Assembly: GCF_002846395.1 (NCBI RefSeq)
Contig: NZ_PJMU01000003.1
Location: 372,001 to 436,000, forward strand
Source: Pontibacter ramchanderi
GTDB lineage: Bacteria > Bacteroidota > Bacteroidia > Cytophagales > Hymenobacteraceae
Direction of reading: 5' to 3'
Length of the DNA: 64,000 nt
Of this stretch, positions 8,385 through 63,053 are shown in pieces. The stretch's first letter is position 1. Each line of letters begins with the position of its first letter. Below the pieces are notes generated by a model. The model had not been told where the DNA came from. It did not search any database and saw only the letters and a program-made list of their open reading frames with translations. Made by a program: the position numbers and the translations under genes.

Positions 8385-9599
8385 TTAAAAAATGATTGTG
8401 AAGGTAGTGCCTTGGTGCAACACGCTGTCCACTTTTATTTCTCCGTGCACATTGTCTACCATTCTTTTCACAATATACAACCCGATGCCGCTGCCCTCCA
8501 CGTGGTCGTGCGCGCGCGTGAACATTGTGAACACACTGTCCTTTTTGTTGAGTGGTATACCCAGGCCATTGTCCTGAACCGACAGGTAAGTCTTCCCACT
8601 GTGTCTCTCCAGTTTGATGGTAATCTCTGGTTTTCTGGCAGGCGATCGGTACTTGATGGCGTTGCTGACCAGGTTGCTGAGGATGCTTTTGAAATTCTTC
8701 GGCGTGAAGCCCGTCACATGACTGTCTGGCGCGATCACCTCTATCCGTGCATCGTTCTCTACCACCAGGCTTTGCAGGTCTTGCCTCACTGACTCCATCA
8801 CCTGGTTAATATCAAGTACGGAGGCATCTTCGTCGGATCCCGTTTTATCTATCTCCACAATTGCGGTCAGGTCCCGGATCGTGGTGGAAAAGCGCCTGAG
8901 CGAGGTCTTCATCATGGCGGTGATCTGCTTGAGCTCTTCCCGGTCCAGGTGCTCGTTCGACACAGAAACAGAAAGTAACTCTATAAGCCCCGCAATATTG
9001 GCAACGGGAGATTTCAGGTCGTGCGAGGCGGTGTACACAAAGTTGTCGAGGTCGAAATTGGCGCTGGTGAGGCTCTTGTTCTCCTGCTGCAGTTCCGCCG
9101 TAAACTGATGGCTCCGCTCCAGCAAATCCAAGCTCTCCAGATGAAAGGCCAGCAGTTCGGCAAACATTTTAAACGTGTTGATCACCCTCGGGTTGTTTAC
9201 AAGGGCCGGCCTGGAGTCGATGGCGCAAAGAGTTCCGAAAAAGTCGCCGTTGCGGAGTAGGATCGGTATTGAGATATAACTCTGGAGCCCGTAAATACGA
9301 GGGGTATGGTGCTCTCTGTAAAGTGGGTCTTCGGCCACGTTGTCGATCACGATCGGGTTGCGGTGTGCCCTTATTTCATTACAAAGCGTGGTTTTGATTG
9401 GAAGTTCACCACCTGCCTCCAGGCCAAAGTTCACTTCGTCGCGCACACTGCAGGCTATCCATCTGTCTTCTGTTACACGTGCCACTGCCGCAAAGCCCAT
9501 CCCGGTGGTCTGGCAGATAACTTCGAGCATAGTCGGCACAACCGGAATCTGCCTGATGGCTTCCAGGTCTTTCAAAAGCTCGTCTTGGATTTCAATCAT
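8385..9599 (-). CDS. Cytoplasmic GAF-domain sensor histidine kinase
   Basis: A 404-residue kinase without membrane segments. The GAF domain is at about residues 20-160, followed by a short coiled linker and the HisKA helix with the phosphorylated His at 193 in TASHDLKSP. The HATPase domain (about 290-404) has an N-box region around LVSNAIKYRSP, the G1 box DNGLGIP and the G2 box GSGIGLYIVKRMV. It ends directly after the ATPase fold. No response regulator is adjacent, so it is an orphan kinase that probably senses an intracellular small molecule, light or redox through GAF. Confidence 0.92.
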   Translation of the reverse strand: MIEIQDELLKDLEAIRQIPVVPTMLEVICQTTGMGFAAVARVTEDRWIACSVRDEVNFGLEAGGELPIKTTLCNEIRAHRNPIVIDNVAEDPLYREHHTPRIYGLQSYISIPILLRNGDFFGTLCAIDSRPALVNNPRVINTFKMFAELLAFHLESLDLLERSHQFTAELQQENKSLTSANFDLDNFVYTASHDLKSPVANIAGLIELLSVSVSNEHLDREELKQITAMMKTSLRRFSTTIRDLTAIVEIDKTGSDEDASVLDINQVMESVRQDLQSLVVENDARIEVIAPDSHVTGFTPKNFKSILSNLVSNAIKYRSPARKPEITIKLERHSGKTYLSVQDNGLGIPLNKKDSVFTMFTRAHDHVEGSGIGLYIVKRMVDNVHGEIKVDSVLHQGTTFTIIF

Positions 9600-58819: not shown

Positions 58820-59110
58820 CTAGCGCCGACGGCCACGCCGGTTGGAAATACGCTCGATGCGTTTGCCGCGCACCCATTTCAGGTACTTCTGCAGGTCCTC
58901 GGCCTGCTGCAGGGCAGGTATGGAGTTGTATAGGGTAGCCAGCTCGCGGTTGCTGAACGTAAGGTGCAGGGTGCTGTGGCAGGGTTGGCAAAGCTCGGCA
59001 GTAGCCCCATAGCGGCCTCCCTCCTCCCGGGGCACGAGGTGGTGGCGCGTAAGGTACTGCACCTCCCGACCGCACAGCTCACAAACCAGTTCCTCTTCCT
59101 TCTTTGCCAT
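58820..59110 (-). CDS. Small HNH-endonuclease-like protein
   Basis: A 96-residue protein. Cys10/Cys13 (CELCG), His23-His24 (RHHLVP) and Cys41/Cys44 with His45 (CQPCHSTLH) form the HNH core, followed by a basic Arg-rich tail (RKRIERISNRRGRRR split). The role may be DNA nicking or a stand-alone nuclease. It is convergent with pncB. Confidence 0.85.
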   Translation of the reverse strand: MAKKEEELVCELCGREVQYLTRHHLVPREEGGRYGATAELCQPCHSTLHLTFSNRELATLYNSIPALQQAEDLQKYLKWVRGKRIERISNRRGRRR

Positions 59111-60668: not shown

Positions 60669-60674
60669 CAGACA

Positions 60675-60708
60675 TTAAAAAAGCCGCTCGGAAGGGCGGC
60701 TTTTTTAA
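60675..60708. terminator. Bidirectional terminator
   Basis: AAAAAAGCCGC (60677-60687) pairs with GCGGCTTTTTT (60696-60706) between convergent genes. Confidence 0.9.
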
Positions 60709-60710
60709 TT

Positions 60711-61133
60711 TTATCGTAGTGTAAAAAAGTTCTGTGAGAAGACAGGGTAATGCGTTTTCCCGCTTCGGAGCAGTTGTAGCACTTCCCGAAGTTCCTCCGG
60801 GTCAGCGCTCTTGAGCAGGTAGCCATGCACGCCCTCTTCCAGTAGTTTCCGTACCAGCTCCTCTTCGCCGTACATCGACACAACCAGTATTTTTACTTTA
60901 GCATACTTGCTAAGCACGTAGCGGGCCACGGCAATGCCATCCATATCCGGCATTTCGAGGTCCAGCATGATGATGTCCGGCAGGTTGCCTTCTATTTTCT
61001 CAAGCAGTTCGGCCCCGTTAGCAGCGTCACTTGTCACGGTGATCTCCTCAAAATTCTTCAGAATCTCGATTACGCCCTTCCTGAAAAGGGTATGATCATC
61101 AGCGATCGCTAGTGTGAGTGGCTGCAGCTCCAT
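60711..61133 (-). CDS. Receiver-only response regulator
   Basis: A 140-residue CheY-like receiver, NarL-subfamily in sequence. The phosphorylated Asp58 is in IIMLDLEMPDMDG, with the acidic pair at 12-13 (ADDHTLFRKG) and the Lys in GYLLKSADPEEL. The family normally has a LuxR-type DNA-binding domain after the receiver; here the protein ends at about residue 140 with FSQNFFTLR and meets a terminator. It is the last gene of a four-gene operon, 10 bases after the kinase. Confidence 0.93.
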   Translation of the reverse strand: MELQPLTLAIADDHTLFRKGVIEILKNFEEITVTSDAANGAELLEKIEGNLPDIIMLDLEMPDMDGIAVARYVLSKYAKVKILVVSMYGEEELVRKLLEEGVHGYLLKSADPEELREVLQLLRSGKTHYPVFSQNFFTLR

Positions 61134-61143
61134 AAAGTAAAGC

Positions 61144-61974
61144 TTAGGTTAGCAAACCAAAGTTATAAATAATAACGATAATATATGCAACAGGAACCAC
61201 TATTTCAGCTTTTATACCTGCGCCCAGCCTCGAAAAGAAATTGATGGCCCCGTTCAACAGGTCTACGCGGCTCTGCAGGTTCTTCAGGCCCAGTCCGCCG
61301 CCTGTGCTACCTGCATCCAGGGTGGCATTGTAATTGAACCCCTTGCCGTTGTCGGTATAGCGCAGGATCAGTTTATCGTCTTCGCGGTGCAGGTCGATCG
61401 TAATCAGGCTAGCCTCGGCATACTTCAGAGTATTGTTCACCAGCTCCTGCAGGATGCGGAACAACAGCAGTTCCTGCCGTGCTTCCAGTCGGAAGTTTTC
61501 GAGGTTATGGGTAAACTTCACCTCCAGGCCGCTGTCAGGGGGCACAGAATGCACCAAGCTGTTGATGGCCTGCACCAGCCCCATTTTGTCGAGCACCACG
61601 GGAAGCAGGTCGTGGGAGATGCGGCGCACGCTCTGGATGGCCTCGTCGAGCAGTTCTTTGGAACGATGGGCTGTTTCGGCAGCTGCTTCATTTTCAGCGC
61701 ACTTGCGCTCCACCTGGCCTATGTTGAGCCGAATGAGGGCCAGCATACCGCCCACTTCGTCGTGCAGGTCGCGGGCCACGCGGCGGCGTTCTTCTTCCTG
61801 CGCCTCCAGGGCTGCCTCCAGCATTTGCCGCTGCCGCAATTCCTGCAACTCGCGTAGGTGTTCCTGGTGCTGCAGCATGCGCCGCTGGTAGGCAAACACA
61901 AACACAATGATGCCAATGGCAAGCACCAGCAAAACAGGTGTGATGATGAGTAGAGGCGTTAAGGTTTCTATCAT
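61144..61974 (-). CDS. Sensor histidine kinase, NarX/LiaS type
   Basis: A 276-residue kinase with one N-terminal membrane helix (about 7-29), a coiled coil and a HisKA_3 domain with His71 in ARDLHDEVGGML. The HATPase domain is at about 160-255 with DNGKGF and GGGLGLKNLQSRV. The last 15 residues after the usual end (VVP) are hydrophobic (VAYIIVIIYNF) and encoded by AT-rich DNA, as if the original stop was lost. Its start overlaps the upstream membrane gene by four bases. Confidence 0.92.
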   Translation of the reverse strand: MIETLTPLLIITPVLLVLAIGIIVFVFAYQRRMLQHQEHLRELQELRQRQMLEAALEAQEEERRRVARDLHDEVGGMLALIRLNIGQVERKCAENEAAAETAHRSKELLDEAIQSVRRISHDLLPVVLDKMGLVQAINSLVHSVPPDSGLEVKFTHNLENFRLEARQELLLFRILQELVNNTLKYAEASLITIDLHREDDKLILRYTDNGKGFNYNATLDAGSTGGGLGLKNLQSRVDLLNGAINFFSRLGAGIKAEIVVPVAYIIVIIYNFGLLT

Positions 61975-62627
61975 GCGGCCATCCTCCTCAAAATAAACAC
62001 GTGGCTTGCGTAAAACAGGATAAGAAGTATCATGTTGATGGCTACACAGATGCGTGCCGCATCATTTGAAATGGCCAGCGCCTCATTAAAAATAGCATAG
62101 GACATACTTGTTCCGGCATAATAAATCAGGATGGCGCAACTCAGTAAGAACATTGGGTCACGGTCCAGGTAAATGATTTTAGCATTGTTGGCGACCTTGT
62201 AAAAGTAAGTGATGGCCAGTATGATCAGCATGACACTGGCCGCAACCTGCGACACGGAATTCATCTTGGTTAAACCGTCCGTTATAAAGGCATCATAATA
62301 GTTGAGTACACAAAGCAAAACTATCCCGAAAATAATGGTGCGCTTGAGCATGATTTTGTCGAAACTGTAATAAAATATGCCAGCCAACACGCTAAAGCCA
62401 ATTAAGGTGTACACATGATTCATCCAGAGATTATTCATCCCAAGCTTTGCTGTTATGATTTGCGCCGCCTGCGCAATTACCCCTAGTATTATATAGAGGA
62501 GCATTAACCTGAATTTGGGATCTTTCTGATTGCGGATCAACCAAAGCCCCACTCCGAAAGGCAGGAGAGGACTCAACACGGCCACCCATTTCAAGGAAGG
62601 ATAGATATGTGCCAGGAAGAACTCCAT
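61971..62627 (-). CDS. Multi-pass membrane protein of the signalling cassette
   Basis: A 218-residue integral membrane protein with about seven helices (about 11-28, 38-58, 69-84, 93-110, 125-143, 155-170 and 190-212). It has no recognised sensor motif. It overlaps the kinase start by four bases and the upstream small protein by one base (TAATG), so all are coupled. It is a good candidate for the membrane sensor that feeds the kinase. Confidence 0.85.
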   Translation of the reverse strand: MEFFLAHIYPSLKWVAVLSPLLPFGVGLWLIRNQKDPKFRLMLLYIILGVIAQAAQIITAKLGMNNLWMNHVYTLIGFSVLAGIFYYSFDKIMLKRTIIFGIVLLCVLNYYDAFITDGLTKMNSVSQVAASVMLIILAITYFYKVANNAKIIYLDRDPMFLLSCAILIYYAGTSMSYAIFNEALAISNDAARICVAINMILLILFYASHVFILRRMAA

Positions 62628-62941
62628 TAGCCTGCTAACTCGCTTTTGTTAACCGAACAGTCAGGAGGACAGGGCGAGGCTAAGTCGAGGATCAGGCCTT
62701 CAGTCATGTCGTTGCCTTCAGCGTCTGTTCCGACCAGCAGCAGCTGCTGTTCGCCATTATCATCCAGGGCATAATAAATCCGCATACCGACGCATCCCTC
62801 CTGCTCGAGCAGATTTCTTACCGTCTCAGCCCCAAATAAGTGTGAGTTAGTTTTGCCCCGGCCACTGGTTCTGTACTTGGCCGTCCACCGTTTTGCTTGG
62901 TTGCGGTCTATTGGCCCGCCCTCTTTTCCTGTAACTTTCAT
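62627..62941 (-). CDS. Small conserved protein with C-terminal CPPxC motif
   Basis: A 104-residue cytoplasmic protein. Conserved-looking features are the GKTNSHLFGAETVRNLL helix, the CVGMRIYYALDDNGEQQLLLVG strand region with Cys50, and the C-terminal SPCPPDCS (two Cys around PPD). I recall similar proteins beside histidine kinases in Bacteroidota, but I know no assigned function. It is the first gene of the cassette, before the multi-pass protein. Confidence 0.8.
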   Translation of the reverse strand: MKVTGKEGGPIDRNQAKRWTAKYRTSGRGKTNSHLFGAETVRNLLEQEGCVGMRIYYALDDNGEQQLLLVGTDAEGNDMTEGLILDLASPCPPDCSVNKSELAG

Positions 62942-63053
62942 GTGGTTGTAATTTGTTCGTAGCGAAGATTAAATGTAAATATAGGAAATTTTAGATTAAG
63001 CAATTTATTGTATTTTTATCTTTTAACAATCTTCTACTCAACTGAAAGAAAAG

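Follow-up and report, generated by a model that had tools for sequence, protein, structure and literature searches.

We identified a compact cassette of four genes in a 64,000-nucleotide stretch of the Pontibacter ramchanderi genome (contig NZ_PJMU01000003.1, positions 372,001 to 436,000; hereafter the window). The genes encode a small protein (S), a seven-helix membrane protein (7TM), a kinase (HK) and a regulator (RR), and together they constitute a real and widespread variant of the two-component system that is undescribed as far as the open-access literature and the family databases show. S and 7TM belong to two families that are unnamed in Pfam, NCBIfam, PHROGs and PADLOC, and these families are constant partners of HisKA_3 kinases across Bacteroidota. 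To our knowledge, little has been established about the signals that such systems sense in this phylum. The initial annotation of this DNA mentioned similar small proteins and kinases in Bacteroidota but knew of no functional description; we found no account of the cassette in the open-access literature.

A four-gene cassette in P. ramchanderi

The four open reading frames (ORFs) lie on the minus strand and, by direct reading of the window, are transcribed in the order S, 7TM, HK, RR (Table 1). Their coordinates bear out the arrangement originally proposed for them, including both overlaps and the single gap. The cassette is flanked by a methyltransferase gene and an MFS transporter gene. The methyltransferase gene adjoins the upstream region in divergent orientation, and the conserved AT-rich block close 5' of the S start is promoter-like in sequence and is the probable promoter of the cassette. 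At the other end, a terminator-like hairpin sits between RR and the convergent MFS gene and is common to both. Elsewhere in the window, a small HNH-type endonuclease ORF (96 aa, positions 58820-59110) lies beside a nicotinate phosphoribosyltransferase gene. The nearest loci are those of P. indicus, P. amylolyticus, P. lucknowensis and P. virosus, in which S is 81-90% identical to that of the window. Chance ORFs are ruled out by the median dN/dS of S, which is 0.08 among ten Pontibacter copies, and by a gene order that recurs phylum-wide.

Table 1. Features of the cassette in the window, in order of transcription.
Feature	Position	Strand	Description
Upstream region	62942..63053	-	Conserved AT-rich block ATAAATTGCTT-ATCTAAAATTT--TATATTTACATTT (alignment)
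S	62627..62941	-	104 aa, ATG...TAA; C-terminal end ASPCPPDCSVNKSELAG
S 3' end (tail, residues 87-104)	62627..62682	-	Start of the block near-identical with P. amylolyticus (sliding identity, difference positions)
7TM	61971..62627	-	218 aa; 1-base overlap with S
HK	61144..61974	-	276 aa; 4-base overlap with 7TM
RR	60711..61133	-	140 aa; 10-base gap (61134-61143) after HK
Terminator-like GC-hairpin/T-run	60669..60710	.	AAAAAGCCGCTCGGAAGGGCGGCTTTTTT (direct reading)

The kinase and a truncated regulator

HK had been described as NarX-type, and Pfam confirms it as a NarX/ComP-type HisKA_3 kinase, with matches above the curated cut-offs to both HisKA_3 (PF07730, 1.2e-13, residues 62-127) and HATPase_c (PF02518, 2.4e-12, residues 168-262). 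The protein has one N-terminal transmembrane (TM) helix and no periplasmic sensor domain. RR matches only Response_reg (PF00072, 2.5e-24) and carries neither a helix-turn-helix (HTH) nor any other DNA-binding domain, in agreement with its first description as a receiver-only regulator. The nearest NCBIfam models, namely MctS, UhpB and LiaS for the kinase and NarL for the receiver, all scored far below their cut-offs, and the whole P. ramchanderi genome holds only one further HisKA_3 match. Close Pontibacter kinases end in a hydrophobic tail past the ATPase domain (YIIVIIYNFGLLT; window positions 61144-61180), which is absent from the kinases of other genera. One Pontibacter genome (G002; L051:6061-6866) has its cassette kinase divided between a pair of overlapping ORFs, likely by a frameshift that is either natural or a sequencing error.

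Full NarL-type regulators of about 210-239 aa accompany the cassette in nearly all lineages outside the family of Pontibacter, and also in some Pontibacter strains with divergent cassettes. The 41 receiver-only systems all fall on one side of a single branch of the HK tree (support 98/90; unrooted tree), and two members of the family that have full regulators group elsewhere in it. From these sequence comparisons, the receiver-only RR appears to have arisen within one lineage by reduction of a full NarL-type regulator. On the simplest reading, the DNA-binding domain would have been lost once, in the ancestor of the window's cassette lineage; because the HK tree is unrooted, this direction is taken from the wide distribution of the full form.

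Two protein families without a name

S had been presented as a small protein of unidentified family, and it remains one after comparison with four databases, having no family above cut-off in Pfam or NCBIfam and none in PADLOC or PHROGs. An AlphaFold2 model built with 87 relatives (pLDDT 93.0, pTM 0.80) predicts a helix, a short strand, a second helix, two long strands and a tail, i.e. an alpha+beta domain of approximately residues 1-86 followed by a C-terminal tail (residues 87-104) that contains the motif CPPDC. Profile searches returned no credible relative of solved structure (best E 0.76), and the predicted fold had no match in the PDB at E<=0.001 (best VIA Z 3.7 over 68 residues) or among the viral models of BFVD. 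The most conserved positions are P92 (85 of 87 relatives), R54 and Y56 (84 of 87 each); the cysteines are retained less often (C91 in 77/87, C95 in 76/87 and C50 in 70/87). A CPxxC motif is present in 72 of the 87 tails and absent from 15, of which 12 retain Pro-Pro. CP is the conserved core of the tail, and Cys can evidently be lost, which makes a pure redox or metal switch less likely; the suggestion in the initial annotation that S is a redox or metal sensor is thus less well supported, P92 being better conserved than either C91 or C95.

The S of the window has no signal peptide and should therefore be cytoplasmic. A minority of its relatives, encoded in the same kind of operon, carry lipoprotein signals or membrane anchors. 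The family would thus occupy at least two predicted compartments, and the site of action may differ among its members. The early proposal that S could be the precursor of a secreted signal would be easier to reconcile with this minority than with the window protein. In some genomes of the family to which Pontibacter belongs, two-domain copies of the S domain also occur outside any kinase operon (L066:7686-8450, L069:7255-8004 and 8765-9496, and L076:7636-8857), and several of these stand-alone copies bear lipoprotein signals.

7TM likewise has no family above cut-off in Pfam or NCBIfam and none in PADLOC or PHROGs. Its AlphaFold2 model (102 relatives, pLDDT 93.4, pTM 0.88) and its topology agree with the seven-helix membrane protein that had been annotated; the positive-inside rule, applied to loop charges, gives N-out/C-in for 102 of 102 relatives. 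Alignment to rhodopsins and G protein-coupled receptors (GPCRs) gave VIA-align Z values of 12-14 with an rmsd of about 4-5 Å over 192-216 residues, a similarity that may reflect only the common arrangement of a helical bundle, and Foldseek returned no match at E<=0.001 (best E 0.028). A retinal protein was rejected, since TM7 of the window protein contains no Lys and the relatives share no column in which Lys is conserved. Variability is concentrated in TM1-TM4, and the N-terminal half is hypervariable in Pontibacter; among close Pontibacter proteins, TM2 and TM4 vary most and TM6 varies least. Two loci that seemed to lack 7TM (L125 and L153) proved to be artefacts of ORF calling, the gene being present in both.

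Conservation across Bacteroidota

Gene order was computed for 112 clusters obtained from gene maps and a stop-to-stop profile scan. In 92 of these, 7TM is the gene immediately after S; HK follows 7TM in 98 and RR follows HK in 94, and the commonest form, S-7TM-HK-RR, accounts for 68; because the loci were selected for carrying S or 7TM, these proportions are biased and are not rates for the phylum. The initial annotation had made its case depend on the co-occurrence of S with the kinase in other genomes, and this co-occurrence is indeed conserved in other Bacteroidota. At family level, a single-sequence search found S in 132 of 200 genomes. Profile searches recovered it from 70 of 291 genomes at order level and from 42 of 395 at phylum level, other classes included; the 7TM profile matched 65 of 296 genomes of the phylum. 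Loci picked by 7TM alone have HK downstream, and in most of them 7TM is also preceded by a divergent S-like gene, including at loci that the S profile misses. The absence of S from 7TM loci is, therefore, mostly apparent.

Within Pontibacter, S and 7TM are both present in 35 of the examined genomes and both absent from 7 (Fisher p 4e-8, a value that does not account for shared ancestry). In the 7 genomes without them, the best kinase matches are weak and lie mostly in long ORFs of other architecture. Three Pontibacter genomes with a weak S match or none have a very divergent S beside 7TM-HK-RR. At the Pontibacter loci L214, L215 and L216, a very divergent type of cassette replaces that of the window, with an S of 137-141 aa ending in a CCRCPPxxNCP tail and a full-length regulator. 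Evolutionary distances of S, 7TM, HK and RR are correlated with one another (Mantel r 0.77-0.90, n=54), also among 24 distant loci (Mantel r 0.38-0.85). The cassette is found both on chromosomes and on a plasmid: NZ_CP089539.1 of Spirosoma oryzicola carries a copy (LQ777_RS24950-24965) whose annotation lists two hypothetical proteins alongside a kinase and a regulator. Next to it on the plasmid, behind the cassette, come three genes in tandem with the annotation tail fiber protein (L194:6613-8285).

S and 7TM multiply and recombine

S and 7TM are the parts of the cassette that multiply and recombine. Several genomes of other genera have tandem S-7TM-S-7TM-HK-RR arrays or several 7TM genes before one HK-RR pair, the multi-sensor forms among the 112 clusters being s7s7HR (6), s7s77HR (2) and s777HR (1). 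Among ten Pontibacter copies, the median dN of the N-terminal half of 7TM is 0.26, versus 0.04-0.06 for HK, RR and the flanking genes; synonymous sites are also more diverged in S and 7TM, and all of the genes are under purifying selection on average.

Comparison of the window with P. amylolyticus (L032) revealed a block that is much more similar than its surroundings, with a dS of 0.13 and 0.06 for the N- and C-terminal halves of 7TM, respectively, versus 0.65-1.37 for the other genes. The block has sharp edges and runs from about position 62683 (S residue 87) through 7TM to about 61964, so that it begins at the border between the predicted domain of S and its tail. The reverse case is seen between L032 and L036, in which HK, RR and the flanking genes are close (dS 0.31-0.55) and the S-7TM alleles are strongly diverged, with 7TM saturated. 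A shared block in diverged flanks, together with this reverse case, argues for recombination of alleles, rather than for fast evolution alone. L031 and L032, on the other hand, have S proteins that are 99% identical and 7TM N-terminal halves that are only 69% identical, and thus S does not always travel with its receptor. The sensor half of the cassette swaps between species, as if it were tracking a changing signal.

A proposed split-sensor model and its alternatives

We propose that the cassette is a two-component system in which the sensor is split into separate proteins, and that S is a dedicated partner or ligand carrier of 7TM within it, a reading to which we give an even chance. Because HK has no sensor domain, 7TM, which by its topology would face the periplasm, is the likely receptor, and it would probably couple to the single-TM kinase through the conserved inner side of TM5-TM6. 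S, a predicted folded domain with a Pro/Cys tail, would be a ligand-carrying or ligand-like modulator of 7TM, and its action would set the kinase or phosphatase activity of HK. HK would then phosphorylate RR. In most Bacteroidota, the NarL-type regulator would act on DNA, whereas in the Pontibacter/Hymenobacteraceae lineage the RR without a DNA-binding domain presumably acts by protein contact. The contacts between S and 7TM and between 7TM and HK, the nature of the signal, the phosphotransfer and the output are what we infer here; gene order alone is no proof that S, 7TM and HK touch.

Several other roles for S can be weighed against this model. S might give rise to, or carry, a signal that passes between cells, in which case the ligand that 7TM reads outside the cell would be the S tail, either by itself or once processed. 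The comXPA-like anatomy of the cassette (a small gene, a polytopic receptor, a HisKA_3 kinase and a NarL-type regulator), the extent of the block exchanged with P. amylolyticus, from the domain/tail border of S to the 3' end of 7TM, and the lipoprotein or membrane-anchored relatives of S would all suit such a role. We nevertheless consider it unlikely, given that the window S and most of its relatives lack a signal peptide, that the cassette contains no protease, transporter or modifying enzyme, and that S varies less than the receptor does within Pontibacter. We are similarly doubtful that swapping of the S tail together with 7TM creates signal types, as in Bacillus ComX-ComP: L031 and L032 share S and its tail but differ in the N-terminal half of 7TM, and a single exchange event cannot show functional linkage. 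CP motifs bind heme in known sensors, and the frequent CPxxC and C50 of the family would fit a cytoplasmic sensor of metal, heme or redox state that uses C50, C91, C95 and the CP motif and signals to 7TM-HK. This seems quite improbable to us, however, since the tails without CPxxC mostly keep Pro-Pro, P92 is the best conserved residue of the tail, and the same motif occurs in lipoprotein relatives, which would reside in an oxidising compartment.

Roles outside sensing find even less room. S is encoded at the head of the operon, behind a conserved block, and could be an output or feedback protein that is controlled by HK or RR or inhibits one of them; its constant presence would suit a receiver-only RR, which requires a partner protein. 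But S is paired with the 7TM copies in tandem arrays that precede a single HK-RR, and S lipoproteins independent of any RR exist at L066 and L069, so that we regard this role as very unlikely. Finally, S might have an unrelated function and be a neighbour through operon inheritance only, as could be suggested by the few genomes (L066, L069, L076) in which two-domain S lipoproteins have no neighbouring HK; the finding that the examined Pontibacter genomes have S and 7TM either together or not at all, and the order conserved across different classes of the phylum, leave this barely credible. Two candidates were rejected separately: a defence system had no PADLOC support, and a RiPP-like precursor had no modification enzyme beside the window cassette.

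The cassette is short, self-contained and present in culturable Pontibacter, and its natural allele swaps and the loss of the DNA-binding domain offer ready-made tests of the way in which a kinase is controlled by a split 7TM sensor. A bolder and rather unlikely extension is that these cassettes form a phylum-wide class of signalling system, in which a stand-alone rhodopsin/GPCR-like 7TM receptor, with a dedicated small protein of novel fold that is or carries its ligand, would act on a separate kinase, and in which the block of S tail and 7TM would be swapped between species to change specificity. If true, this would provide Bacteroidota with their own system of communication or recognition through protein ligands.

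Comparison with known systems

The cassette is a member of the two-component kind, the window HK having HisKA_3 and HATPase_c domains and an adjoining receiver protein being present; it is neither a ComQXPA nor a 7TMR-DISM system. The DNA-binding output domain typical of the NarL family is absent from the window RR, but such a domain is not required of two-component systems generally. NarX/NarL, UhpB/UhpA and LiaS/LiaR share with the cassette the combination of a HisKA_3 kinase and a NarL-family receiver; the window HK differs in having one TM helix and no sensor domain, and the cassette in its truncated RR and its two additional proteins of unnamed families. In LiaFSR and UhpBC, a HisKA_3 kinase has a separate membrane regulator encoded alongside, as HK has 7TM beside it, although 7TM matches no described family of membrane partners in the scans used, and S is without a counterpart there. 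The 7TMR-DISM proteins (PF07695) are also bacterial seven-helix receptors tied to signalling domains. The window 7TM, however, consists of seven helices only, in 218 aa, with neither the extracytoplasmic DISMED domain nor a fused output domain; it does not match PF07695 at E<=1, and 3 of its 102 relatives do so weakly (best 1.8e-4).

The nearest known layout is that of ComQXPA of Bacillus (ComX, ComP, ComA), in which a small gene, a polytopic receptor part, a HisKA_3+HATPase_c kinase and a response regulator likewise stand in a row (PMC4008528). In ComP, the kinase part is conserved and the membrane receptor part is variable (PMC4008528). The cassette has no ComQ isoprenyl transferase, and the regulator of the window lineage lacks a DNA-binding domain. 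The S tail (DLASPCPPDCSVNKSELAG) contains no Trp, whereas a ComX-like precursor has one near its C terminus. S is predicted to be a folded domain of about 104 aa, with a conserved sequence instead of a hypervariable one, and the receptor is encoded by a separate 7TM gene, whereas the helices of ComP are fused to its kinase.
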